Assembly: GCF_016859285.1 (NCBI RefSeq)
Contig: NC_053415.1
Coordinates: forward strand, 17,059,001 to 17,123,000
DNA from: Xiphias gladius
Taxonomy: Eukaryota; Chordata; Actinopteri; Istiophoriformes; Xiphiidae
Direction of reading: 5' to 3'
DNA: 64,000 bases
In this document: piece after piece, positions 4,806 through 62,076 of the stretch
How positions within the stretch are numbered: the first letter of the stretch is position 1
Layout of the letters: every line of letters begins with the position of its first letter
Notes under the pieces: model-generated
The model's input: only the letters and a program-made list of their open reading frames with translations
Databases searched by the model: none
Told to the model about the DNA's origin: nothing
Made by a program: the position numbers and the translations under genes

Positions 4806-6417
4806 AAATTATTATTTTATGCCTGGTCTGGACACTGAAAGGGTTTTTATTTTTGCTTTTGCTGACACGTTAGAGCGTGTGTGTTGACACAGGCACTATT
4901 TGCATCAAAATCAATAACCCTGCTTGAAAATAAGCCCAGCCAATGAGTATGAAAATGGATCAGACCAGTAAAAAAAACCTCTGGGTTGCTTTCTCAGTCA
5001 AAACATAGACTTTCTACTGTTAAAATAATTCACACCATGTGGGGTTAATTAACCTAATCAGTTTGTTGATTTAAAACTCACACGAAGAGTAGTCACAGCC
5101 TGGTCGTTTGCCAGGTCAGCACGTGTGGAGGTGGTCTGCTACCACAGCCTGCTGCATGACGTTTCTATTAAATAACATCATGCCACGGTTATTAAGCAGC
5201 ACTAATCCACTCATCTGCATGATTGTGTACCCGCTGTGAGCTGTTGACAAATGTGTTTGACTCTGTCTCAACAACTCACCTAAAGTTAAACAAATTTAAT
5301 AAAGATGTTTTGATTACTTTAGATGCATGGATCTTCTGGCTCATATACAACCTTTTTCTGCTACAGTTTGTGTGAAAGAGACATATGCTATTAAGACATG
5401 AGCCATGAGCGTCCTAGTAGGGGTATTGATTCAGAGGGAATGCAGGTGTCATGTTGAGGATTTGTCACATAGTTTGTAAGGAAGTTATGGGATTTATTTG
5501 AGAATTTATGTGCCCATGACACTGCTATGGAGGGGGAGCAGAGGCAGGTCCTGACTGTTGGGAGAGGAAGGTATAAAGAGGACGGTTGGGGTAGGCATAT
5601 CAAAACAGATCCCCATCTATAGTGCATTAGCATCCCAAAGATACAGTCTTATTAGTTTAGGACTTTTCAGTGATAATAATATAATAATAATAATATTGCT
5701 ATGGTCGGTCTATACATCATGGTTGGTGAGTTTGTCAAGTGGGGATAGAACAAAGAAGCTAGGCCTGCTGTATGCTAATCCCCATTTGACGCATTAATTT
5801 GTATAAAAGCACCTATGCTTCTTGTTTTAAAAAGTAATGATTTATAGTGTCAAACAGAATTCGAGGGTCTTTCTGCCTATAGCTGTTAAGATAAAATTTG
5901 CGTGAGTTTCATTGTCTTTGCTAGATATTTATTTATTTTTTTTTTTCCAATGTCCCACCACCCAAAGTAGACCTAAACACTTCAAACATAGTTCATGGTG
6001 GCTTTCAAACAGTTGCAGTGTTTGTTTACAATCTTTTTTTGGGACATGTCTTGGGGCTTGGATACTCTGTTTCAGCTCAGCCATGATTCACTGTCAGTCA
6101 TTTGGGAGCATATCAGTACAACCACAGCTGTTGACCAATTGGAAGTACTGCTGGAACCAGTGGGGTTAAACTGGCTGTATCTAAAGAAGGAGGCCATATT
6201 GTTCTGTCTCTCCCAGCCAAGAAATTTGACCGCAGACATTCAAACCGGCAACTTGTCAATCACAAATTGGCTTCTGGAACAAGTAAGCTATAACGCCCTT
6301 AGATGCTCCAGTTTGAGTCTGAGATAGTGACTAGCAAGACTGATGTTGTAAATTGTAAATTTTTTAAATCGCCACTTTGTTCTGAGAATCTGCCTCTTTC
6401 TGTCTCTCTATCTTTAG

Positions 6418-26123
<19,706 letters not shown>

Positions 26124-30393: not shown

Positions 30394-33300
30394 TTAAAAG
30401 TCATTACAGGGGTTTTTACTGACCACCTCCAATATGAGAGGAGAGATATCGTCAGGCTGGATGTCCTGGATCTGCAGAACCTGTTTGCTGTACTCCTCAG
30501 TCATTGTTCTCATCTCTGTGAGACAGGCCATCACTTTGGGGTACAGCAAGCTGGAGTCACAGAGAAAACAGATGCAGATTGGTTGGGAAAGGTTTCAGAT
30601 TGAACTGACTGCTAGTGGCCTCTGGTATTTCACTCACTGTTTTTCTGGGCCTTTTCTCTTGCAGTCAATCCAGGTCTTTAGTGTCAGTGCCAAGTTTTCA
30701 TGAAGCTCGTCGATCACACTGTGCTGCAGCACACCTGGACGATCTGATAGATCAAATAATATAATCTGTACTTAGTATCAAATCTCTACTAATCCAAAGC
30801 AACTTGAACCCGAGGACGTCTGAAAATACATTTTTATGCTGGGCTGGATACAAATGCAAACAGTTTTTAGGGTTTAAATATTTACAGGGTTTATAAATGA
30901 TTGATGAGAAAGGACTGGGATGAACTGATGAAGACCTGCTGCTACCTGGAGAAAACAGGGACATGGCTTGCATGAGAACATACTCTTCCTCCTGCAGGCC
31001 CAGTTTGCGTAGTGTGTGGTGAAATTTTAACAAAGGCTCCAGTAGGAGCGGCTGGAAACCTGCTACAATACACAGGAGAACAGAGGTCAATGACAGACAG
31101 CAAAGCTTTTATTGTGACACATCTTCAGGAAATGTCGCAATGTCTCATTGATTGTGATTAACGCAACAAACACAAAATAGAATCAATTTTAATAAATAAG
31201 GAGTGAGAACAGCATTTCTGACATGACTGTGGTCATACTGAAGAAAATAATACAGTGGGAATGTATATTAAATTACCACTACAGGTAATTTTTCTTTCTT
31301 TTTTCCTGCCTTTTTTGGGACTGTATATGTAGACCACAAACACAAACAGTCTGCAGCCTCAACTATTATGTGAATAAAGGGTTTTCTTTGAGAATTTCAA
31401 GCTATTTAAGTAGAGGTGAACAATATAGATGGAAATGCTGTTTCCTAAACAGAAATATTTGGAAAAGTTTGAAAAATACATTACATTTCCTTTACTTATT
31501 GGCAGACACTTTTGTCCAAAGCAACTTACAGGTTAGGGACACCAGTGAAACTTCAGTACAGTAGGAGACTACGAGACTCTTAAGATTGAGAGTGACACCC
31601 CTACTCTGATAACATTTGGCAGCTCGTTCCACCACCTGCCTTGTATGCAAGGATGGCAATGCTCGACAACATTGGTTGGTGGAACGCAGTGGCCAAAACG
31701 GGGCATAAGTCTGTATGATTGAGTTCAAGTATATGGGTGCAGACCCCAGAAGTCAATCTGTGGGCAAGCATTAGTGACTTGAATTTGATTCGGGTGGCCA
31801 AGGGTAGCCAGTGGATGGTCAAAGAGCAGCAGAGTGACGTGCTCTTTTAGGCTGATCGAAAACCAGATGCGCCGCCACATTCTGGACCATCTGTAAGGGT
31901 TTTGCTGTGCGTGACAGGAGGCCCGCTTGGAGGCCTGCTCGGAGGCCAATAGAGTGGTCGAGGCGAGAGATAACCATGGCCTGTACCAGGAGTATTGTGG
32001 CGTACTGGGTCAGGTAATGCCTGATTTTTTTTATGTTGTATAGTGCAAAATGGCACGACTGGGAGACAGATGCAACATGGTCAGAGAGGCGTGGCTGGTC
32101 ATCAAACATGACACACAGGTTTCTTACAACCTTGGTTGGGGTGAGACATGAGGAGGTGATTTTGATGTTGATATTGTGATGGATTGATTGATTGGCTTGA
32201 ATGACTAAGAGTACAGTCTTAGAGAGGTTAAGTTGAAGGTGGTGTTCCCTCGTCCATGTTGATATGTCTGAGAAACAAACCGAGATCCACGCCGAGAACG
32301 TGGGGTCATCTGGCAGGAATGATAATAGGAATGGTACAGTTGGGTGTTGTCTGCGTAGCAGTGATATGAGAAGCCATGCGAGCAGACAACGGGACCCAAG
32401 GAGATGGTGTATATTGGACAAAGAAGGTGCCCCAGAACTGAGCCTTGGGTCACCGCTCTTTCAATAGCGTCAAAGGCTTTTTGAGCAGAGATGTTACCCG
32501 AGCCTGTTTGAATGTGGTCAGAAATGTTCCCAAAGACAGTGAAGCAATGGCAATGGGGTCCAGCGCACATGTAGTAGGACGGCTACCAGTTAAGATTTTA
32601 ATCCATGCCACAAAGTTAAATCAATGCATTAAATGACTGTTATGTAAGGTTGAATTCTGCACTGTCACCGAGCTGATTAAAGACATAGCATTTTGATAAT
32701 GGACATTTCATTCAAAACTAACCAACAAAAAAAAAAAAAGTCAATCAAGAGAAGAAAAATGCCCTAATTTTTTTTTAAAGAGATGTCATGCTGTGATGTG
32801 CTTAAACCGCAATATCTCAATGTGAAAACATTTGTCACGATAAGATTTTATGGAGAAGAAATGGTAATTGGTACATAAGCTGTACTGCACAAGATGTCCT
32901 GATGTCCTGATATTGCATAGTACTGTTTCCTCTGCCATATCAATTTATAATCTATGCAGGACACCTCGGAGTTCATTATCATTCCTACACCACAACTATT
33001 TACCTAAAGAAAAATAAGAGACCATGTTCACATCACCATCTTTTTTTTTAGCTTATATGTTGTCATTATGTCATGGTTAGGTTAGCTTGACCAGTGAATA
33101 CACTGGTAATGTAGCATGAAAAATAAGCATTGTTGCTATGGTTTACATGGCAGTTTAATATAACTTACACACTAACCTAGAGCAGTGGCAAAATAGTTGA
33201 TCCCTGACTATGTTTGGAGTGATCCAAACTATTCTCTGTAATCTGAATTATCACCTAATTCTAAATATTTTTTTTTAGCATTTTTGAGAGACAGTACACA

Positions 33301-36300
33301 AAGATGCAGTGTTACAGAGAGTCTTCCGGCCAAAGGCAGAGAATACAAGGCAGGAAGACAATGAATAAATGCCACTGCATTTTGTTTCATCTTTAGAAAA
33401 AGCAGCAGACAGCACCAGTTTGACAGCATTCTAGCAAATGTTCCTCCAAGAGTCATGTTACGATAAGAGGTGTAAGAGAAGTGCACATACTTGTTATTAC
33501 ATGTCTTACTACTCACAAATAAAAAGTACAATATCTGCAGACATATCCAGAGCATGAAATTTGCTTTTATATTAGTACTTTGAAACTTCACATATAACTT
33601 AAACGGTTCAAGGCAAAGGGAAACCAACACAAGTGAGACGAGAAACGCCCCCACAGTGACTCCTTCATGAGCTCAAAAAAACTTTTTTTTCATACTGGAA
33701 TCGAAATGTCAGTGTGCAGGTGCTGCCTTTTTATCATCACATGAACTACATCTGTAAAGCAGAGGTACTTGACATGTCTGAGGGTGCTTTTGTTTAGATA
33801 ACTTTCACACACTGTCAACTATAAACTACATTACTCACACACAGGACATACCTTTGTGTTGCTGCTTCTTTAATCAACATAAGATCATATTTGTGCCTTT
33901 AAGACACTTACCTATCCTCTCTCACATTATCCTATCACATCCATCGAACTGTTTTCTATTTCCAATCCATGCTAGGTAAGCTACAACCATTACTGAATGT
34001 ATTTTGTAATAAGTAAGTAGACTTGATTCTAACTACTGTTGTACTGGCTGACTCAGTAAGGTGCCCAAACTTTTGCACATGCCACAACTACTGTTACTCC
34101 TTTACTTCTTATCACTTCAAAAATCAACAAAATATGTATTTTGCACAAAGCAAACACTGACAAATCCAATGGCACTTAAGCCTCCCTGTGATTCCACCTC
34201 TTTCCTTATATAATGGGTCAAATAACTACTTTTAGGTAAAATCAGTCGATTAGTCGAGGCGGCACAAAGAATTGTCTCACCTTACCAAAGCTTGTTTTCA
34301 GTAGCAGGTAACTGTTTTCGTAAAAAAGCTTTCATAAACCCACTGGACACTACCTGCTCAGCACCAAACAGCAGGCAGACATAATGAACATAGTGTTGCA
34401 TTTAGCAACTAAAGAGCCAGATAATTCCATCAGAAGGAGAGCAAAATAGGGCTAAAGGGAATGTAAGCTTCACATTCATCAGGTGGCTAGACACACAACC
34501 CCAAATGAATGCTATGCTTGCTTTGTTTCTGCTAGACGTGTTAATAGACAACGTTTTGCTAAAATGTTTTTGGACCAATTTATCAACTTTTTAAGGTCTT
34601 AATAATATGTTAAGTGAGCAAAAATTTAATTAATGCAGGTTTCAATATGACCTCTCTGTTTAAATGCAGCTCTCTCAAATTAGTAAATATTAAAGGAAAA
34701 AAAAGTGTTTTTATGAAGTATATATGGTCATCTCTACATTTTCACACAGAAAGGTAGAAACAGCACAGCCTACCCCTCTGACTATAAAAGAAATGCTTGT
34801 TTGTGTTTGTGTGAGTAGTCCCACCTCGTACAGCGTCATCTATGCAGTATGTTATTTGGCCACATTCCCAGATACTTGTTTTTGCGTTGAACACCATGTT
34901 GAAGCGGATCTGCATTATTTCAAATGTGGCCCCCTTCAACAGAGCAATTTGGTCCCCCATTGTTAGAGACCTGTAAGAGACCGCCGTGACATGACACACG
35001 CCAAATTCTGCTGAATAGACATTGGTCATATAAAACATGAAAGAAATACCCACTGAGACATATCTGAATATGCGCTGAGTCAAAAATTTACCGAAAGTCC
35101 TGTAGACTTTTGGAGAAACTAATGATGTCCTGGATCATGTAAGTGGTGAGGTCAGTCATGTGTGGAAGAGCAGTAAAAACACTGCTTTTGCTAACCTCTT
35201 CTCCTTCTTGGTTCCCTGGTTTTTCAAAGGAACCACTGAGACTGGAGGAGGAGGAGAGGGCGTTGGCATATGAGGATGTTCTGGGGTTTGTGGCAGATTT
35301 TCTAGCTTTAGTGCAGGTGTTTGTAGGGCAGTTGGTCAGTGGATTAAAGGGCTCACTTGTAGGCCTGTTGTACTCACTCATAGAAAGGAGGATTCTGTCC
35401 ATAGGCTGAAAAAAGAAAAAGTCGGTCAGACAAGTTATGACAATGAGGATGATGAACACCTCAAACATGCTTGCAGTCATTCACACACCCTAAAGCCACT
35501 GAAGCTGGAAAAAGCTGAGTCAAATGTGCTGCGGTGGCCACAGACTAGCTCCTGAATGATTTCTTTCTGCTGGGATGAAAGCTGTATTGGAGCATCAAGC
35601 ATCTTTTTCTTCTTGATTCGGATCCTCCTCTCCAATACCTCCTTCTCCGACATGACCACTACAGGGACACAGAAAAATACCTGTATGTACCGTATGTCAC
35701 CGTACAAATACAGATTACTGAGTAAATCAAGTTTTATATTCTTTAATTACTCCTGCAATGACATTTAAACTACACTTCTAATGTTGGATTATGTTGAGAT
35801 AGTATAGCAAACCTGAGATAATTAAAGAATTTTCTTTCTTCAGGCTACAGCGAAGAGAGTCTGATGTACCTGCTCAATTTTAAAAATGTATTTTTCACTC
35901 TTTATTTCACCTAACACACATGATCAGGATGCTTGTTGTCTTTTTACCACTGTAAATGTATTGCTTTATATACTATGTTTAACAGATTCAAGTGGTATGC
36001 AGTAATAACTGAATGATGAGCTCCTCACAACATTATGTACTTTCTTACAGTTGTCTTAAAAACAATAAGGGATATTTGTTGTGTCTGGATGTTACTTACT
36101 CTCTTTGCGCATGCCTATGGCCTGGCATTTACGAAAGCGACAGGCTTGACATGACCGGCGGTTGTTTTTGGTTATAATGCATTTATTCAGGAATGGACAG
36201 TGGAGCTGCGTTGACCTCTTTATGGCACGTCTGAATTTAAAAAAAAAATCCACTTAGTAACAGCTTACAAACTTCAATCTGAAGTTAGAAATCACCTGAT

Positions 36301-41393: not shown

Positions 41394-46924
<5,531 letters not shown>

Positions 46925-49129: not shown

Positions 49130-52100
49130 ATGAGGGACGTGATTTGGATTTATGCTGGGATTAGCCTCTTGGTGTCTGAAGCATGGAGCGTGAAGCCAGG
49201 TGTGAGCATTAACACATTTTACTCGCAAATGGTTTCAATACTTGATCTTTTTCAGCTTTCATAAGATACAGATTTTTGATACAAACATGGTTTTTTAGAG
49301 ATGCACATATCATCCACAAAGATGACCTAACAAGTAGTTGTCTTCACTTCCTGACAGCTACACTACTAAACAACATCATATGTTTTACTACACTATTCTT
49401 TTACTGTATGAATGTGTCATTTGCGGTGCTTTATACTGTATGTTAATATGTTGTCTGAATGTATTGTTATTACCTGTAATGTAACTCTTAATATCATGCT
49501 GTCATTATGATTTTATTCCACACTGAGTAATCTGTGACATGTTGGGAACATTTGAACAAGCAGTAAACTGTAACTGTAAGTAGAGAACTGCTCTGATATT
49601 TGTGAAATTGTCATTGTGTGACTCATAGTGTAGGTAGTGGAAATAACTTGCATGGAGTTGGGGTAATGCAGAAGCTGACTCGGGAGAGAAATGTTCCGTT
49701 AGATATGTATGAAAAGATTGCCCTATATTTTCTGAATGAACAGCCAGCACGGTGCTACTCGTGTCTCCGCTTGAAATCATGATATCAGATCAGGGTAACA
49801 TGATGCAGCTTTTCTCGCTAAGGGGTCTCTGACAGTTGAAAGAGACACTTCTGTTTGAAACCCGTGGTTTTACTTTACCACTACATGCATGCTGTTTTGC
49901 CCTTTCAGAAGTAAACAAGTCTAATTCCCCCATAACACCGTGCAGTAAACATCAGTCGTTGAACCCTGAACCCCTGTGTCGACAAGTAAATGGGGGAGAT
50001 TATGAGAATAACATTTGCCTATTTTATAAGTTTCCCTACACCAGTCAAGTTTTTGTTTTTGTTTTTTACAAATCTCAAGAAACCTCACAATTTTCCCAAT
50101 TTTCACAATGGCAAATAGTGCAATTTTTCACATAGCTGTTTGCTTTGTAGCTGTGCTGCAGATTAGTCCGATCAGAACGGTTTTAATCAGATTGCTTTTC
50201 ACCTTAACTAACTATTCAAACTAAATGATGAAATAACACACAGAGCACCGTGATTGTTGCTTTGCTGATTGAATGCTTCCAAATGAATCACTAGCTGCTG
50301 CTTACTCACTGAAAAAAAACAACACTATTTTACTTGCTTTTTCCTTATATTCCATGTCGTCTCTCTCAGAAACTAATCAAAGCACCTCTGTGAACTCCAG
50401 CGCTTCTGCTCATACTCTTACTGATGGTAAACTCATTTTCTTACTTTTCTCTCCAGTTAATTTGCAGTATGAGAAAAATATTAAGTAAGACAATTGATAT
50501 CAAATAAGACGAGCAAAGGCACAGCAAGCTGAACACAACAGTATACATTGTTATCCCCCATTTCTTCATGAATCCTTATTTTAAACATTAAGCACTTTTT
50601 TAGTTTAATTGAAAGAATGAAAAAACGCTTTAAACCAAGTTACTTTTGAAGTAGAAAAGTTCAGTAATTACTTTTAGTTTATTTTGGAATGTAGTTATGA
50701 AACATTAAGAAGCTATACCAAATGATTTTGTTAGCCTTGCATCTTTTTTCGTCGTAATAATTTATTTTGAAAGATCACAGTTTATAGGTTTCAGTTTATT
50801 CCAGATGAAATTTAATCATTATCATTTTAGACTGAGGGTTATCAAATGTTTAATCCAAAATAATTGCTAAGAAGGTTTTCTCATGGGACAAATCTTACAT
50901 AACATCAACATGTTATATTTTTATCCTGTGACATGCTTCTGTTACCTGTTATTTATTGTTTGTGTTATTTTATTTTTTATTTTTTGTCTTTGCATGTCCA
51001 TGTCCCATACATAATTTAATCTGTTTTTTCTTTTAGTTTTGCATGTGCTTTGGGGGGGTATACAAGAGCATAAGCACTGTGTATATTGTTTTATGATAGA
51101 GTAGATCCAAACATTTTAATCTGCACAATCGCTGCACCAATATGTGCAAAAATAATGCAACTATTCCTTCCTTTTTTCAGCTATCAGAAATTTAACTTTC
51201 AACCCGGGGAGTGATGTTGACCTGACATGCAGTAATAAGACATGGAATGAGATGATGTATGTTATTTGGAAAATAAAATTGGAATACAAAAACTGTAAGA
51301 TAGGCTTTAGTAGTACTGGCCAAAGCACAGACACCTGCAGTGATGGCCGGTCACTCCGAAACACATCCAGATCTCAGTCATACCTGCATATCCCAAACTT
51401 CACAACTGATGACGTGGGGGTTTACAAGTGTGAGTCTGCTTACAACGGGGGAAACGAAAATTATGTGATCAACATGGCTATCGCAGGTAGGACTTTATTT
51501 TTCCTTTACCAGTCAGAGATGACTGTAAACAACCTCATAATCAGTAAGGGTCACCTCTTGAAAAAAACCTAATAGAAGTATGACTTTCTAGACACGGTGT
51601 CCCTGTCACTGTGGATAATTGATCAACCTTACTGTTGACAGTTTTCATCTCGGATTATTTCATATTCAGTGTACGAAATAGTGAAATTTTAAAACAGTAA
51701 AACCTAGGCAAGCAAATTAAAATGACTTTATCTGCAAGGTAAGGTATTGCTACTTGTGAGTGCAAAGCTTATTCCTCCTTTTTTGTCTTTCCTGGCTCAG
51801 TTCCTCCCAGTATATCAGCCTGGTTAGAGCAAAGGGACAAGAAGATGGTGGCTGTGTGCAAAGCTGAAGGAGGCAAACCTGCAGCCACCGTCAGCTGGAG
51901 TCATAAGGGAAACTCAACATCTCTGGAAACGTTGCTTGGCTCAGAAGGATTTATTACTGTAGAAAGTCGTCTGGAGCTCACAGAGGACGTGAATACAGAG
52001 AACCTGGCCTGTACTATCAGGCATATATACTGGGACAAGGAGAGGATTCTGATCCCAAAACTCAAAAAAGGTCGGGCTGCACAAGAGAAAAAGCACAGAA

Positions 52101-52613
52101 GCAATTAGTTTAAGTTTTTAAGTTTAATTTGTTTAGGTTTTTTATACTGTAGTGGTATTTATTATTTGCAAATAGGTCTTCTAAGACATCTCTCTCACAC
52201 CGCAGGTTATATTCCTTGGCTGGTCGTCCCTACTGTTGCGGTAGTCTGTGTATTTTTGGTGGGATTATTTTTTGCACAAAAGAAATTAATAATGTGGAGG
52301 TAAGATGTTTCATCTGATGAAAAATAAATGACAATGACCGCTTGCAAATTTTTTTGTTGAGTCACTGAGCTTGTTTGTGTATCCACGTTTTACCAGGCGA
52401 AGCCAGCAGTCTGACACATCACAATCCAAATCTCCACCGGTGGGCAATTTCTCTGTAACTTACTCTGTATTTTATAGTTCTACTGTACGTTGCCAAGTTT
52501 TGGTAATGACACTTATCTGTTTTTGTTTTTGTTTTGTTTTTCAGACCGAGGATGTGGATGAGGTGGAACCCTATGCCAGCTATATTCAACGTGTTAACTC
52601 TATCTATAACTGA
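49130..52613 (+). CDS. cd200r1: CD200 receptor 1-like inhibitory Ig-superfamily receptor
   Basis: Type I membrane receptor; mammalian CD200R1 binds CD200 and restrains myeloid cells. Exons: 49130-49199, 49909-49944, 50370-50426, 51181-51486, 51801-52070, 52206-52299, 52397-52439, 52545-52613; 314 residues, phases consistent (mostly 1-1). Exon 1 is a signal peptide (MRDVIWIYAGISLLVSEAWS). Exons 2-3 are tiny and Ser/Thr/Asn-rich. Exon 4 is a V-like domain with SDVDLTCSN, VIWKIKL (CD200R hallmark), DDVGVYKCES and several NxT/S sites. Exon 5 is a C2-like domain with MVAVCKAEGGKPAATVSW, very close to mammalian CD200R AVCKAVAGKPAA. Exon 6 is a membrane span ending QKKLIMWR. The tail ends EPYASYIQRVNSIYN; mammals have QPYASY and an NPLY DOK-binding motif, here NSIY. 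The exact use of the small exons is less certain than the rest. AATAAA signals follow at 53262 and 53571. Confidence 0.88.
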
Positions 52614-55770: not shown

Positions 55771-56523
55771 TTACCCCATAAGTACATAATCATCTGCACA
55801 TTCGTCTTTAGATGAGTGCTCAGATTCAGTTTCGGGTTGAAGTGATGCTGGGGCATTAACTATGGCATAGTCGCAATCATTGTCAGTTAGAACTCTGGTT
55901 GTTCTTGATCCTTTGGCAGTGCTGTGGTCAATAGAGGCGTACGTTACATCCTCGGTACACTGTCATGAGATAAAACACAGAAGGAGATGGTAATTCCACT
56001 GTCCTGAACATATGTCACGAATAATGTATTCTATTTTTCCACACAGTGCTAATGCATCAAGCGCCCTTTTTGATGTAGTTAGTGGCTATGACTCCCTGTG
56101 GATGAAAGAAACATCCTCTCTCTTTCTTTTACGGCGGAGGGCCTCACGCTAATGCTCACCCAGTATGCAAATCTAATGAGGCAGCACCTGTGACTGGGCT
56201 ATCATAAAAGCACAGTAGCACACACATGTCCTAGGAAAAGCTGCAAGTGATAACTATGAAGATTTATGCTCATCAAAAACAGACTCAACATTTGTGTGGG
56301 CTGGTCAACCTTTTTATCTCTGCTGCTTCTATCATCTGGTGCAGAGTCCTCTGAAAGAGAAAAGGTCAATTTATAATTGGAGCAAATAATTATACTAAAT
56401 TTAATAAATATTACAAATACTGTTATACTTGTAGTTTTACCTCTCCTTTTCTTCTTTGTCCTGACAATGAAACAAATTGAAATGAAGAGACCCCAATAAG
56501 GACACAGTCATCCAGATCAACAT
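55771..56523 (-). CDS. Candidate TRAT1-like transmembrane adaptor with ITIM-like and YxxM motifs (frame conflict)
   Basis: Three minus-strand exons join in consistent phase: one ending at 56441 (basic TKKKRR, donor gtaaaa), 56310-56350 (EDSAPDDRSSRDKK, acceptor ctctttcag, weak donor gttgac) and 55771-55959 (TAA 55771-55773). The last exon encodes TEDVTYASIDHSTAKG, then CDYAIV and a terminal DDYVLMG. VTYASI fits the ITIM consensus; YVLM fits the PI3-kinase YxxM motif. TYASIDHS resembles TRAT1 CYASLDHS and BTLA VYASLNHS. No immunoglobulin exon is visible upstream on this strand, which favours a short-ectodomain adaptor such as TRAT1 (TRIM). Upstream of TKKKRR a membrane-like stretch follows an ATG at 56521-56523, but the two halves are in different frames around a GGGG run (56491-56494). 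The alternative is that this stretch is only a pyrimidine tract before an acceptor at 56461 and the true membrane exon lies elsewhere. Could be a pseudogene. Confidence 0.45.
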
Positions 56524-57216
56524 AAAATTAGACACAGAACAATAAAATCCATTAGTGTGGGATACATTTATTTAAAAGGCTTGGAATGTTAATTTAACTT
56601 CCATTTATCTGGTAATTATGACGTTCACATGAAACATCATGAAATACCATAAAACATAAAATAAGATCTGCAGCGGCTTTTCAGATGTGTAGCTTTTACA
56701 CCACAGCAGTGTTTCCTTGACAGCAACAGTGTGTACTGGAACAGGAAACACTCTGCATATTTCTAAAACCCAAAGCTGCCTATGACCAACTGTCTATGTC
56801 AGTGACTAACAGCACAGGACATGGAACTTTGCATGCCTCTAGGTCAACATCTCAGATCACGTTAAAGCAAGTACATAGTGTAGTACACATGAGAGCTCTT
56901 TAGTCTTTATGTTTGACAGTTATTGACAGAGACACTGGCTGAAACTATTTTTGTCCAGTAAACACTATTCCCTTGCTGAAGCAAATGCAGAAGCTGCTCG
57001 CTTCAGGGCCAAAACTCATCATTCATTTAAACGAGTATCCACAGCCTCCCCATTTTGCTGCTTTTTGAATGGACTTGCCCATATTTTCTTCTAATTTACT
57101 CACGTCCTGCAGCAGTTTCAGCGAAACTTTACAATATAATTATCATGTGACGAAATATTACTTTATAATGAGTGAGACAGACCTGTCCTATTGTGTGTGT
57201 AAGGGTGATTACTTAC

Positions 57217-57376
57217 CTTGAAGCGCAGTTTCCCATGATGAACCCGCAGAATCTGGATGTTCACGCTGTATTTGTCAGCAGGTGGCAGTCTGCCAGGTGG
57301 CCTGGTTGCTTTCAGAACAACTGTAAGCCTGAAACTGCAGTAGACACTGATATGGCTGATCTCTCCACTGCTGCAA
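57217..57376 (-). CDS. Isolated NTR/TIMP-like exon candidate
   Basis: On the minus strand a 160-base open segment is bounded by tgtgtgcactcag| and AAG|gtaagt, both good splice sites. It encodes 53 residues starting CSSGEISHISVYCSFRLT, continuing VVLKATRPP, then DKYSVNIQILRVHHGKLRFK. Two cysteines 12 residues apart, then hydrophobic VVLKA and an alternating YSVNIQIL strand, recall the start of NTR/TIMP domains (mature Cys1 and Cys13, then VIRAK and YEI-K). TIMP Cys3 is absent. No partner exons were found either side, so this may be a gene fragment, part of the neighbouring minus-strand gene, or chance. Confidence 0.25.
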
Positions 57377-59123
57377 CTGAGTGCACACAGGGCACAGTAG
57401 AGAAAGAGTGAGAGAGAGGGAGGCGGAAATTGTGCTATTTTGATTTCCTGTGTGCACTGGCTTTAAATGCAACACACACAAACACCCAAACGCATGTATT
57501 CACGTTGTGGGGGTAAACTTCAAATACACTAACGAGTCACTTTCCGTCAATCACAAAAAAACAGAACATAGCCTAACATTTTTAAAATAATGAAGTAAAA
57601 AGACTTTAATTCTAGAAAGACACACTGTTGAGTTCAAAGGTAAATTTTCAATGCTTTCCTCCCACTGTATTGGGTTGGTGGCAGAAGTATCAGCAGCAGC
57701 TATCTCAAAACGTCTGCGCTGCTAAATACTGCATGGGGTATGTAGATAAAGGTGAGCTGACCTTCACTGTAGTGGGTGCTGTTGTTGCTGTACCTTCTCA
57801 TTTGCATGATTGTGCAAATTTTCTTAGTAATAAGAGGAAGCCACTGCCCTTTTTTCACTTTAGTGGAAAGCCCAGTTTACTTCACAAGCCATGTCTTTGT
57901 CAAGAGTAAAAAATAGACCTTTATGGATGTAAAAATCATAATGATCCTTTAGAGATGTTTTTACATATGCACAGTGCAGTAAAATCAGTTTGGGAAGGTC
58001 TCGGAAAAGCAGCTCACTATGAGGATGGTCTACTGAACTGCAAGTATTCATGTCAGCTGTCAGGTTTTAGATGTCTGAGACTGGATAGATTTTACAACTT
58101 AACTCGTACATTCATCAATTATACATACAACTGTGCATTCAAATGCAGTAGATGTCTCTCGGTTATACACTGGAGGGCGATGTTGGAAAAGTCTGGGTTT
58201 GACTCACGTACCACAAGCAAAGGCCCTCAGTCTACAATAGAAAGGTGACTGTCAACTTACGCCATCTGCTGGTTGAAATGAAGGAAAACGAAAAAAAAAA
58301 AAAAAAAGTCACCCTTGGTAAGTACAGTGTCAATGCACAACTTCTCTAGTCTAGTGAGAATGCACAAAGTGATGCCATGATGAGGAAAACAAATAATTGC
58401 CATATATATTTGCTTTTTTGGAGGCAGGTCTGTGTTGAACATTGTCTATCCATTGTCTATCCGCCAAGCTGCTGGCAGACATTTGACATTTCTTCATCTG
58501 AGGGAGCTACAGATGTTTGCACAGATTGGATAAGGGAAGCCAGCAAGCTTCATATTATTTCATAAAGATGATAACTTCCAAGCGGCCTCCAGTGCACATT
58601 GCTGACTAATGTAAGCTGTTCTTTTCTGTACTTTACTACAATTTTTGTGTGGAATGGATTTGATCCCCTTTTCGTCGCTAATGGAAATTACATGCCGCTA
58701 AGGTCACGGCCTGATTTTGAAGCCAGGATGTCACAACCTCTCTCTGGGCTCTATGGCCACTTGAGCCACGTTGAGAGAACATGGTTGTTGAGATGGTGAA
58801 TCTGTACACATTGCAAAGGTGATCCCAGGTCCCCCTGACATAAATGACAGGCCCACTTAACCTTAAAAACTATATGTCTCAGTTTTTTTGTGAGAGGGTA
58901 TCTTTATAAATCTGTACAAATTACTTCTGTAAGTGTCCATTACAGAATTACAAAGATAATATGCATAGTGCAATTTTCACACATGCATGTTGGAAACAGT
59001 GTTATCTCCTGGCACACTATAATGCCAACATGCAGGATGGTCTTAGAATGTATGTGGGAGGCCAGGAAGTGGTGAGCTTGTCACAAGCGAAGTGAGCCCA
59101 TGCCGTAGCTACCGTTTCAGGCC

Positions 59124-62076
59124 ATGAACATGTTGAGCCTAATGTATAGACTGCCACACACCTATCTGATGATATTTTGCTTATTTGTTCCCGTCTATGG
59201 AAGAGGTGAAGGTAAGCCTTAGCACGCTTTTATCTGGGGATATGACTTTCAAGACGGCTTTAGGGAAAATTTTTACTAAAGTGGTTATTAATTGGACAAA
59301 ATAAAATGTAACAATTGCGATTACAATGTAACTCTTTAGTATATGAGTATATGAGGTATAAATAAAATACGTATTGGGTACCCATATGTAAGTACAAGTG
59401 AAGAAGAAAAAAGCTCAGGGAATCAAGGGGTGATAAATTACACTTTTTTTTTTTTAAATCACTGAGTATCTAATTAATAATTCCAGGGTACATTAATATT
59501 ATTACGTGGTAACAAGAAAGAAAAATGGTGAAATGGGGTAACAGTGTTGATATTGCAATGAAATTATTAATGTTTTCATTTATGTTAAAATTACAAAAAT
59601 AGTTTTTAAAAATAATTTGCTGTTAATGGGAAACAAACCAACAAAGGGTGTGACTTGAAAGCTATAAAATATTCATATCTATGTTTTTAAAATGATGATA
59701 GAATACTGGAGAACTGTAATGCTGTTTTTGGATCCAGTGTCGGAGCCAACTGATGATCAAAACTGATGTCGGAGAAGAACAAAGATGAGCTTTTATGTCC
59801 AGTCATATCATCAGATTATACAAAATAAATAAATAAATAAAATAAGCCAAACACCTGTCCTCTCACAAACAAACTTTATTGAGGTTTATTGGACAACATA
59901 GAGTATAAGGATTGGTGTGGTGAGCTACCTCTGAATTCAGCATGTGACATGTCAATTTCCTGTTTTTTTTTAAAGGCATGTATCAGGAAATATAGTCAAG
60001 GTAATGGGTGTTACTTTCTGGTGACAATACAATGCAATAAGGGCGAAGCATTGACTGTAAGTTCACTGTAAAATACATACAGGCTAACCCTTTTGCTCCC
60101 CCTTCAGTACCTTATAATTATTGGATTTGTAGTGGGTAATTAAAAAAGTATTCACAGGCTGCAGTAATTGAATTCTGGGTCCCCCCTAAATTCACATTTG
60201 TTACCCCGTTGGTCCCTGTACGGCTTCGCTTAGTGAGTATTTCATCGGTACCGTGTATTTACACTGTAATTTGTGAGCTGTATAATTTATCAATAAGAAG
60301 CAAAAGGTACAAAAATATAATATTAATGTGTATTACTGGGTTGTGCTATAATCTATATACAAACCACAAAAGTTCAGATTTATACTCCAAAATAAGAAAA
60401 TGTAGGTACATTTCCTGCATTAAAGGAATAGTCAAACACACTAGAGATGTATTCGTCAGAATTGACTATAGCACTGAGAGAAATGTTTATGTTATCTTGT
60501 ATCAGCTCCTGAAATGTTTTACGATTTAAATGATTTATTTTCAGACTTGTTTCGTTCATGTGAAGTCAGGCTGACGGTCCACAGAGGCACGACATGGAAA
60601 AGTGCCTCACAACAGCCTGTGACAGTCAGATGTCCTGTCAAACACTGTGGAAAGTCCCTTAATGTCTCCTGGTGTAAACTACTCGACACAAACAGCTGTG
60701 AACGGATTAATAACACAGAGAATGTAGAAATAACACAGACTGATAACTATGTTGAGGATGAACTGATCTCATATTTAACTTTCAAACGGATTTCTATTTA
60801 TGATGATGGCCTGTACAGATGGGATTTAAAAGGATACGAATATGAGCTAATCAGTCATATCATCAACATCTCAGTTTCAGGTACGCAGTTTATTTTTCCT
60901 CCCTCAGTGCCAAAATATACATGGAATATGTCAAATTTCAAGTGTTAGTTCTATCTGCTATCTATCATTCCCTTAAGACCTACACCAGGGGGTTGAAACA
61001 AATGACAATACTGACAATATTGAAGGTAAGAACCTTTATAAGTTAGATAATATACATGCATTCATACATCGATACAGACGAGGACTATTGATCTGGTTCT
61101 TCTTCTTTTGTAGTTACGTCAATGAACGCTGCTGGTGACGAGGTTGTGTCCTGGCTGCCCTTCCTCTATATCTGTGGTGGCATAGCTCTTCTGGTTGTCA
61201 CAATAACAGTGTTAACCCTCCTGGGTTTTTATGGCTGGAGACGTAAGAACACTCACAAGTATTCACATTTTGGATTACTGTAATGAAATTTGTAGATTTT
61301 ACCACCTAAACAATGGAGCATTTGTTATTTGCCCTCTTCACAGAAACACCGACCTACAAATCAACAAAGGGACAGGTAATGTGATGCTTTGTTGCTAACT
61401 TACAGGAACAGTTCGACATTTTGTGTTCTTGCTGAGAGTTAGGTGCAATGATTGATCCAGGGGCCAGTAGCAAGAGTGGTACCAATCTTCTCATCTACCT
61501 CTTGGCAAGAAAGCGACTAAGCGAATTTCCCCATATGTTGAACAGTTCCTTCAATCCAATGTTTAAGAGTCATAATGGGGTCAAGGAGTATTTCGCTGGC
61601 TTATTTAATCTTGTTCTGGTGTTTTGGTGCCATAGGAAATATCCACTCATATGATACCTGACCTCCCCAAAGGGCATGCTCCCTCCACTCCTGTCCTGCA
61701 AGCCCACTTCATGCTGAATGACATCTACTCTCCGAGTACTGCAGGGACACCACCATCGGCGCCTTCCCTGATCACCAATGGGGACCAGCCTTTGGCAAAC
61801 ACGGCAGACGAAAGTCAAGTGTCAGACTGTGCAGTGTATGCTGAGATCAGCCATACAAAGTGTGGGATACGTGCCAGAAAACAGCATGCTGCTATTAAAC
61901 AAGATAAAGACCCAGAATATGCAACTCACTGGAACTTTTTTGAATGGACGGAAAAACGTACACATGTACATGGTGGTTACATAGAACAGGCAAAGAGGTT
62001 AAACCATCAGCCACACTGTGGAAGAGGTGAATGGAGGAGGCTTGTTGTCATGCAGATGCACACTGTGTCCTCTTAA
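59124..62076 (+). CDS. btla: B and T lymphocyte attenuator (BTLA)
   Basis: Inhibitory receptor of lymphocytes; the mammalian protein binds HVEM and recruits SHP-1/2. Exons: 59124-59211, 60545-60880, 60978-61025, 61114-61242, 61344-61375, 61636-62076 (TAA 62074-62076); 357 residues, phases 1-1-1-1-0. Exon 1 is a signal peptide (good Kozak gccATGa; MNMLSLMYRLPHTYLMIFCL) with two in-phase donors, gtgaag after 59205 and gtaagc after 59211. Exon 2 is the Ig domain: SCEVRLTVHRG, VTVRCPVKHC, LNVSWCKL, closely like human CDVQL..., ELECPVKYC, VTWCKL. The F strand reads DDGLYRWDL, with Trp where Cys is expected. Exon 3 is a short stalk with an AAG acceptor. Exon 4 is the membrane span (LPFLYICGGIALLVVTITVL). 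The tail has NDIYSPS, CAVYAEISH and DPEYATH at the positions of the BTLA Grb2, ITIM and ITSM sites, then about 50 more residues absent in mammals. Confidence 0.9.
61403..61553. repeat. Short TIR element, GGAACAGT family
   Basis: Starts aggaacagttcgacattttg and ends atgttgaacagttcctt. These ends are inverted repeats of each other and match the element at 22328-22610. Internally shortened. It lies in the last btla intron, 83 bases before the tail exon. Confidence 0.75.

Follow-up and report, generated by a model that had tools for sequence, protein, structure and literature searches.

GCSAM, also called HGAL or GCET2 and, in the mouse, M17, is known from germinal-centre B cells, where it tunes B-cell receptor signalling; the literature treats it both as an adaptor of these cells and as a lymphoma marker. 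The review PMC11518702 gives HGAL (GCSAM) an MG2NS myristoylation site, polybasic residues Arg7/10/11/21, a C43-F-C45 palmitoylation site, a consensus immunoreceptor tyrosine-based inhibitory motif (ITIM) at Tyr86, an FBXO10-binding His91, a GRB2 site at Tyr107, SYK-binding Tyr128 and Tyr148 and a C-terminal PDZ ligand. According to the same review, C1ORF150 (GCSAML) begins with MG2NY and lacks both the CxC and the PDZ ligand, whereas the YEN GRB2 site is common to HGAL and C1ORF150 (PMC11518702); PMC10333346 puts the coding part of human GCSAML exon 1 at 29 nucleotides (nt) and exon 2 at 60 nt. Here we describe a gene with similar features in a 64,000-nt stretch of Xiphias gladius DNA (NC_053415.1, 17,059,001-17,123,000, forward strand; "the window", whose positions are used as coordinates). 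The gene lies on the minus strand at ~57.24-55.77 kb, has four predicted coding exons and sits between a CD200R1-like and a BTLA-like gene. Judged from its sequence, its product is probably a lipid-anchored GCSAM-like adaptor rather than a transmembrane TRAT1. We consider it likely to be a cytosolic adaptor of the GCSAM/HGAL kind, 89 residues long, short and divergent, and the likeliest fish counterpart of GCSAM.

Exon structure and reading frame

The gene model consists of the following exons:

57217..57236, minus strand: exon 1, coding part (ATGGGAAACTGCGCTTCAAG), MGNCAS and two bases of Arg7; donor AAG/GTAAGT, phase 2
56441..56460, minus strand: exon 2, 20 nt, the remainder of Arg7 and polybasic TKKKRR; AG...GT flanks; ends in phase 1
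56310..56350, minus strand: exon 3, 41 nt (EDSAPDDRSSRDKK); donor AAG/GTTGAC, weak, phase 0
55771..55959, minus strand: exon 4, 62-residue tyrosine-motif tail, stop TAA; acceptor at 55960

Reading frame, exon phases, motifs and neighbours are directly established for this gene; its transcription, lipidation, partners and orthology to GCSAM we infer from the sequence. Between 55959 and 55774 one frame of the three is open, the other two holding stops, and exon 4 encodes CTEDVTYASIDHSTAKGSRTTRVLTDNDCDYAIVNAPASLQPETESEHSSKDECADDYVLMG. Followed backwards, the phases form a chain in which exon 4 wants a phase-0 donor, exon 3 a phase-1 donor and exon 2 a phase-2 donor. First exons were enumerated within 56461-60600 as phase-2 ATG-to-GT stretches whose donor scored 5 or more. 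Six candidates emerged, the strongest being 57236-57217 with a score of 12.1, in the top 0.05% of all minus-strand GT. The other five score 5.1-5.4; three of them share the end 58261 and either follow a poly-T run or consist of a lone Met, and the remaining two code for 2-4 residues. The acceptor of exon 3 is strong (top 0.14% of AG) and that of exon 4 mediocre (score 4.76, equalled by 11% of all AG). Splicing of the four exons gives MGNCASRTKKKRREDSAPDDRSSRDKKCTEDVTYASIDHSTAKGSRTTRVLTDNDCDYAIVNAPASLQPETESEHSSKDECADDYVLMG, 89 residues. The 1.37 kb past the stop contain a single ATTAAA (54483) and no AATAAA, and scans for bacterial-type promoters and tandem repeats yielded nothing useful. The range given in the preliminary description of this locus, 55771..56523, spans exons 2-4 and omits the first coding exon at 57236-57217.

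How unusual the motifs are by themselves can be gauged from 20 dinucleotide shuffles, in which acceptor-preceded frames of at least 60 amino acids that contain an ITIM-like motif and close with Yxx[MLIV] arise at 0.6 per 64 kb, and at 0.2 per 64 kb if three Yxx[MLIV] are demanded. The real minus strand has four such frames, or three by the stricter definition, exon 4 counted in; the plus strand has 0 and 0. Two of the other minus-strand frames overlap each other inside the NR1I2-like coding stretch. Because the motif criterion was fixed after the exon had been seen, the motifs count as no more than moderately unusual by themselves, and the phase-consistent exon chain is better evidence for a gene than the motif counts.

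Membrane anchor and tyrosine motifs

Translation of exon 4 places three tyrosine motifs:

55930..55947, minus strand: VTYASI, ITIM consensus, Tyr34, with His39 at Tyr+5
55858..55875, minus strand: CDYAIV, Tyr58
55777..55788, minus strand: YVLM, YxxM of the PI3K p85 type, Tyr85, followed by Gly and the stop

These three tyrosines (YASI, YAIV and YVLM) are the only ones in the predicted protein. All three motifs had been picked out beforehand, with YVLM at the C terminus, and all are borne out by the minus-strand open frame of the final exon; the basic TKKKRR reported upstream of them was located at 56460-56441, bounded by AG...GT. The protein starts with MGNCASR, a myristoylation-type start with Cys4 (the other cysteines are at positions 28, 56 and 81), and its basic residues near the start are R7, K9-K11, R12 and R13. 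Gly2-Asn3-Cys4 at the N terminus, together with Ser6 and the basic residues that come next, makes up a typical dual-acylation signal. Since the maximum 19-residue hydropathy of the 89-residue product is 0.16, it has no predicted membrane span. A search of the protein against solved structures returned 0 matches at E up to 10, and the six pattern matches from a viral-contig scan were not related to the adaptor.

Relationship to GCSAM and GCSAML

The predicted protein resembles GCSAM in several features. Both have an MGN myristoylation-type start (MGNCASR in the fish prediction), with Arg7 and a polybasic stretch beside the myristoyl site. In both, the first tyrosine is ITIM-like with a His at +5 (fish Tyr34/His39, HGAL Tyr86/His91), the last stands in an acidic setting (fish DDY, GCSAM DEY) with LM following, and there is no transmembrane segment. 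Tyr58 and Tyr85, both in acidic context, are placed like the SYK-binding Tyr128 and Tyr148 of HGAL. Among the differences, GCSAM has 178 residues against 89 in the fish protein and ends in a YELLM rather than a YVLM motif. With GCSAML, a human protein of mast cells, the fish gene shares a very short first coding exon (20 nt in the fish, 29 nt in the human gene) and a phase-2 first intron, as well as a myristoylation start, the lack of a PDZ ligand and an end soon after the last tyrosine motif. However, GCSAML keeps a YEN GRB2-type site and has an exon 2 of 60 nt against 20 nt in the fish, and its alignment is weaker than that of GCSAM, exon 4 alone not being significant.

The comparison sequences were those of GCSAM, GCSAML, TRAT1, SIT1, BTLA tails and LAX1. 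For exon 4 we counted how many of 2000 shuffles reached the real score under each of two gap settings, and repeated the count with the TYASIDHS core and the tyrosines held in place. For human GCSAM the counts are 4 and 7 in full shuffles and 5 and 18 with the core fixed; for mouse GCSAM, 0 and 0, then 3 and 1; for TRAT1, 16 and 7, then 348 and 137; for GCSAML, 94 and 266, then 104 and 286; for the human BTLA tail, 224 and 183, then 300 and 300; and for LAX1, 250 and 110, then 221 and 86. Alignments to GCSAM thus still outscore shuffles when the shared heptapeptide is kept in place, and those to TRAT1 mostly do not; going by these alignments, it is similarity outside the TYASIDHS core that separates GCSAM from TRAT1. 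The exon 4 test excludes the MGN start, whereas an anchored test includes it, and this start was already in view when exon 1 was picked. Profiles built from these sequences score 8.7 bits for the GCSAM family (reached by 0 of 2000 full and 19 of 2000 heptapeptide-fixed shuffles), 8.1 bits for TRAT1+SIT1 (5 and 185), 7.4 bits for TRAT1 (7 and 446) and 9.2 bits for two BTLA tails (1 and 137). They favour GCSAM under the fixed-heptapeptide condition only, and alone are not decisive. GCSAML as the nearest relative was considered and set aside, as exon 4 alone does not support it (94 and 266 of the full shuffles, as above).

Several observations weigh against membership in the GCSAM family. The Pfam HGAL family (PF15666) is unmatched by the fish protein, for which Pfam gave no family at all up to an E of 10. 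None of its three tyrosines lies in a YEN/YENV GRB2 site, it has Cys4 instead of the CxC palmitoylation pair, and it terminates in YVLMG without a C-terminal PDZ ligand. In plain exon 4 shuffles, human GCSAM and TRAT1 come out almost alike. The exon 3 donor, GTTGAC, scores just 1.08 and is matched or beaten by 33% of GT, and a better in-frame donor (GT at 56225, score 5.74) would add 28 residues. In view of the missing HGAL profile match and GRB2 site, we do not list the protein as a proven member of the family. The missing Pfam match, GRB2 site, CxC and PDZ ligand and the short length would also suit a lineage-specific lipid-anchored ITIM/YxxM adaptor that does not descend from GCSAM and whose SH2-binding motifs have converged; ITIMs of the YA[SQ][LI]xH type recur among unrelated receptors. 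We hold such convergence to be unlikely, since position, N terminus, first-intron phase, the His at Tyr+5 and the alignment beyond the heptapeptide all fit GCSAM.

A transmembrane reading

The preliminary description favoured a TRAT1-like transmembrane protein, that is, an adaptor of the TRAT1/SIT type with a short ectodomain, a membrane span, TKKKRR as the stop-transfer signal and a tyrosine tail. There is some ground for this: TRAT1 is a small adaptor with a YASLDHS motif, and unspliced read-through before TKKKRR gives LCPYWGLFISICFIVR, which resembles a membrane span followed by a basic stop-transfer. The open stretch in question is bounded by a TGA at 56510 and lacks an ATG in frame, and the lone AG that it offers ahead of TKKKRR is the acceptor 56462-56461. 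The hydrophobic run, having neither such an ATG nor an AG short of its end, can therefore not form an exon and is instead the exon 2 acceptor's pyrimidine tract translated as protein. Upstream transmembrane exons were enumerated with an acceptor score of at least 3, a donor score of at least 4, a length of 30-300 nt and a hydropathy of at least 1.5. No credible exon was found at these thresholds; there was one internal candidate, through a poly-T run, and the hydrophobic candidates able to join TKKKRR all traverse one poly-T stretch and share the end 58261. Candidate phase-0 cassette exons in the intron between exons 3 and 4 number three, and at 5, 13 and 17 residues they are too short for a membrane span.

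The family comparisons point the same way. The Pfam SIT family (PF15330), which TRAT1 matches at 2.6e-35, is unmatched by the fish 89-residue protein, and SIT1 showed no similarity in any alignment run. With the heptapeptide fixed, the TRAT1 alignment score was reached by 161/1000 and 54/1000 shuffles, in addition to the profile and exon 4 counts given above. The likeness of TYASIDHS to TRAT1 and BTLA that had been pointed out (the motifs being YASLDHS in TRAT1 and YASLNHS in the BTLA tail) is real in full shuffles for TRAT1, but the TRAT1 likeness lies mainly in the heptapeptide. TRAT1 and SIT1 also differ in having a transmembrane anchor. Splice logic, the upstream exon enumeration at the thresholds given and the conditional shuffles, together with the donor score of the MGNCAS exon, led us to reject the TRAT1-like transmembrane reading, which we judge quite improbable.

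The longer form of exon 3 (56226-56350, minus strand; GT at 56225) would insert a stretch with MLSLFLMSINLHSYHLQLFLGH, moderately hydrophobic with a 19-residue mean of 1.13. Its product is a possible membrane-associating isoform, although 1.13 is below the usual membrane-span cut-off of 1.6.

Neighbouring genes

The genes on either side are both on the opposite strand:

51156..52613, plus strand: CD200R1-like gene; immunoglobulin (Ig) exons tested by search, tail judged by eye
60478..61932, plus strand: BTLA-like gene; Ig exon tested, transmembrane segment and tyrosine-motif tail read by eye

For the plus-strand Ig exons at 51156-52108 the best match is CD200 receptor 1 (4bfg, E 1.5e-14), and Pfam adds V-set and C2-set_2; for the plus-strand Ig exon at ~60.55-60.9 kb it is BTLA (6nyp, E 1.7e-7), with no Ig family from Pfam. 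Both neighbours had been named correctly beforehand. The proposed absence of an Ig exon from the minus-strand gene likewise agrees with Pfam scans of 55963-60746: of the 12 open minus-strand frames there with at least 60 amino acids, 10 were covered, and none of these matched a family at an E of 0.1 or less. What had been proposed as a minus-strand adaptor with tyrosine motifs and no Ig domain, beside CD200R and BTLA, therefore stands with its motifs in an open frame and its neighbours matched.

The proximity of BTLA raises the question of whether exon 4 could be the tail exon of an inhibitory receptor, a BTLA-like duplicate or remnant that has lost its Ig exons, and hence a pseudogene fragment. 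The human BTLA tail has a YASLNHS-like ITIM and a second [DE]YA motif ~25 residues on. Yet it belongs to an Ig receptor and has no YxxM end, and exon 4 shows no significant end-to-end similarity to the human BTLA tail or to that of the window (scores reached by 224 and 1609 of 2000 full shuffles, respectively). In addition, the BTLA gene, Ig exon included, is on the plus strand, while the frame of the adaptor is intact and its splice sites are good, save the exon 3 donor and the mediocre exon 4 acceptor. We regard a receptor remnant as very improbable indeed.

The tail of the fish BTLA-like gene (61636-61932, plus strand) has a VYAEISHT ... EYAT pair whose layout resembles the YASIDHS ... DYAIV of the adaptor.

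To the left of the CD200R-BTLA cluster lie GSK3B-like (6303-25018, plus strand), NR1I2-like (34742-35746, minus strand) and CFAP91-like (42011-45366, minus strand) coding stretches. One piece of each was matched by searching solved structures, whereas further short pieces scanned with Pfam gave little. On human 3q13, GSK3B-NR1I2-CFAP91 and GCSAM-CD200-BTLA-CD200R1 are two separate blocks, with TRAT1 on 3q13 too, but farther away. Given that the blocks are separate within human 3q13, the fish has them joined. PMC4262766 places GCET2, which is GCSAM, at human 3q13. With GCET2 there and the blocks arranged in this way, a GCSAM relative would therefore be an expected neighbour here.

Elsewhere in the window, overlapping frames at 31601-32582 (minus strand) have a reverse-transcriptase-like look (YADNTQLY) and perhaps represent a decayed element without long terminal repeats; Pfam gave no match at E up to 0.01 for three frames within this region.

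Proposed mechanism

The mechanism that we infer for the GCSAM-like adaptor is as follows. The MGNCASR start would be N-myristoylated at Gly2 and palmitoylated at Cys4, and KKKRR would bind acidic lipid, keeping the adaptor at the inner plasma membrane beside antigen receptors. There a receptor-proximal kinase of the Src or Syk family would phosphorylate the three tyrosines. The ITIM-like VTYASI might then recruit an SH2 phosphatase, and the DYAIV/DDYVLM pair could dock Syk-type or p85 SH2 domains, YVLM being suited to PI3K p85. In this way the adaptor may modulate signalling from receptors of fish lymphocytes, much as GCSAM tunes that of the B-cell receptor. Because the GRB2 and RhoGEF arms of mammalian GCSAM are missing, its effect may lean to inhibition and PI3K over motility.

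Evolutionary implications

According to PMC11518702, GCSAML is missing from lower vertebrates as well as from mouse and rat. Germinal centres are said to be lacking in cold-blooded vertebrates, but fish have clusters of Aicda-positive cells ringed by melanomacrophages (PMC9772432; PMC10450919). The words GCSAM, HGAL and GCET2 are absent from PMC10450919, which deals with the fish clusters, and among the papers listed, titles and abstract openings yielded no report of a fish GCSAM, though sequence databases may hold an automatic annotation. It is conceivable, if doubtful, that GCSAM predates germinal centres, fish having retained a pared-down version that has an ITIM and a YxxM of the PI3K type but no GRB2/RhoGEF docking, and that the YASxxH core of the adaptor, BTLA and TRAT1, genes of one ancestral chromosome segment, stems from a single duplicated tail exon that came to be carried both by Ig receptors and by a lipid-anchored adaptor. 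A GCSAM-like gene in fish would show which GCSAM modules, such as those for GRB2 and PDZ-RhoGEF, are not universal, and it would provide a marker and a knock-out target for comparing Aicda-positive clusters with germinal centres.
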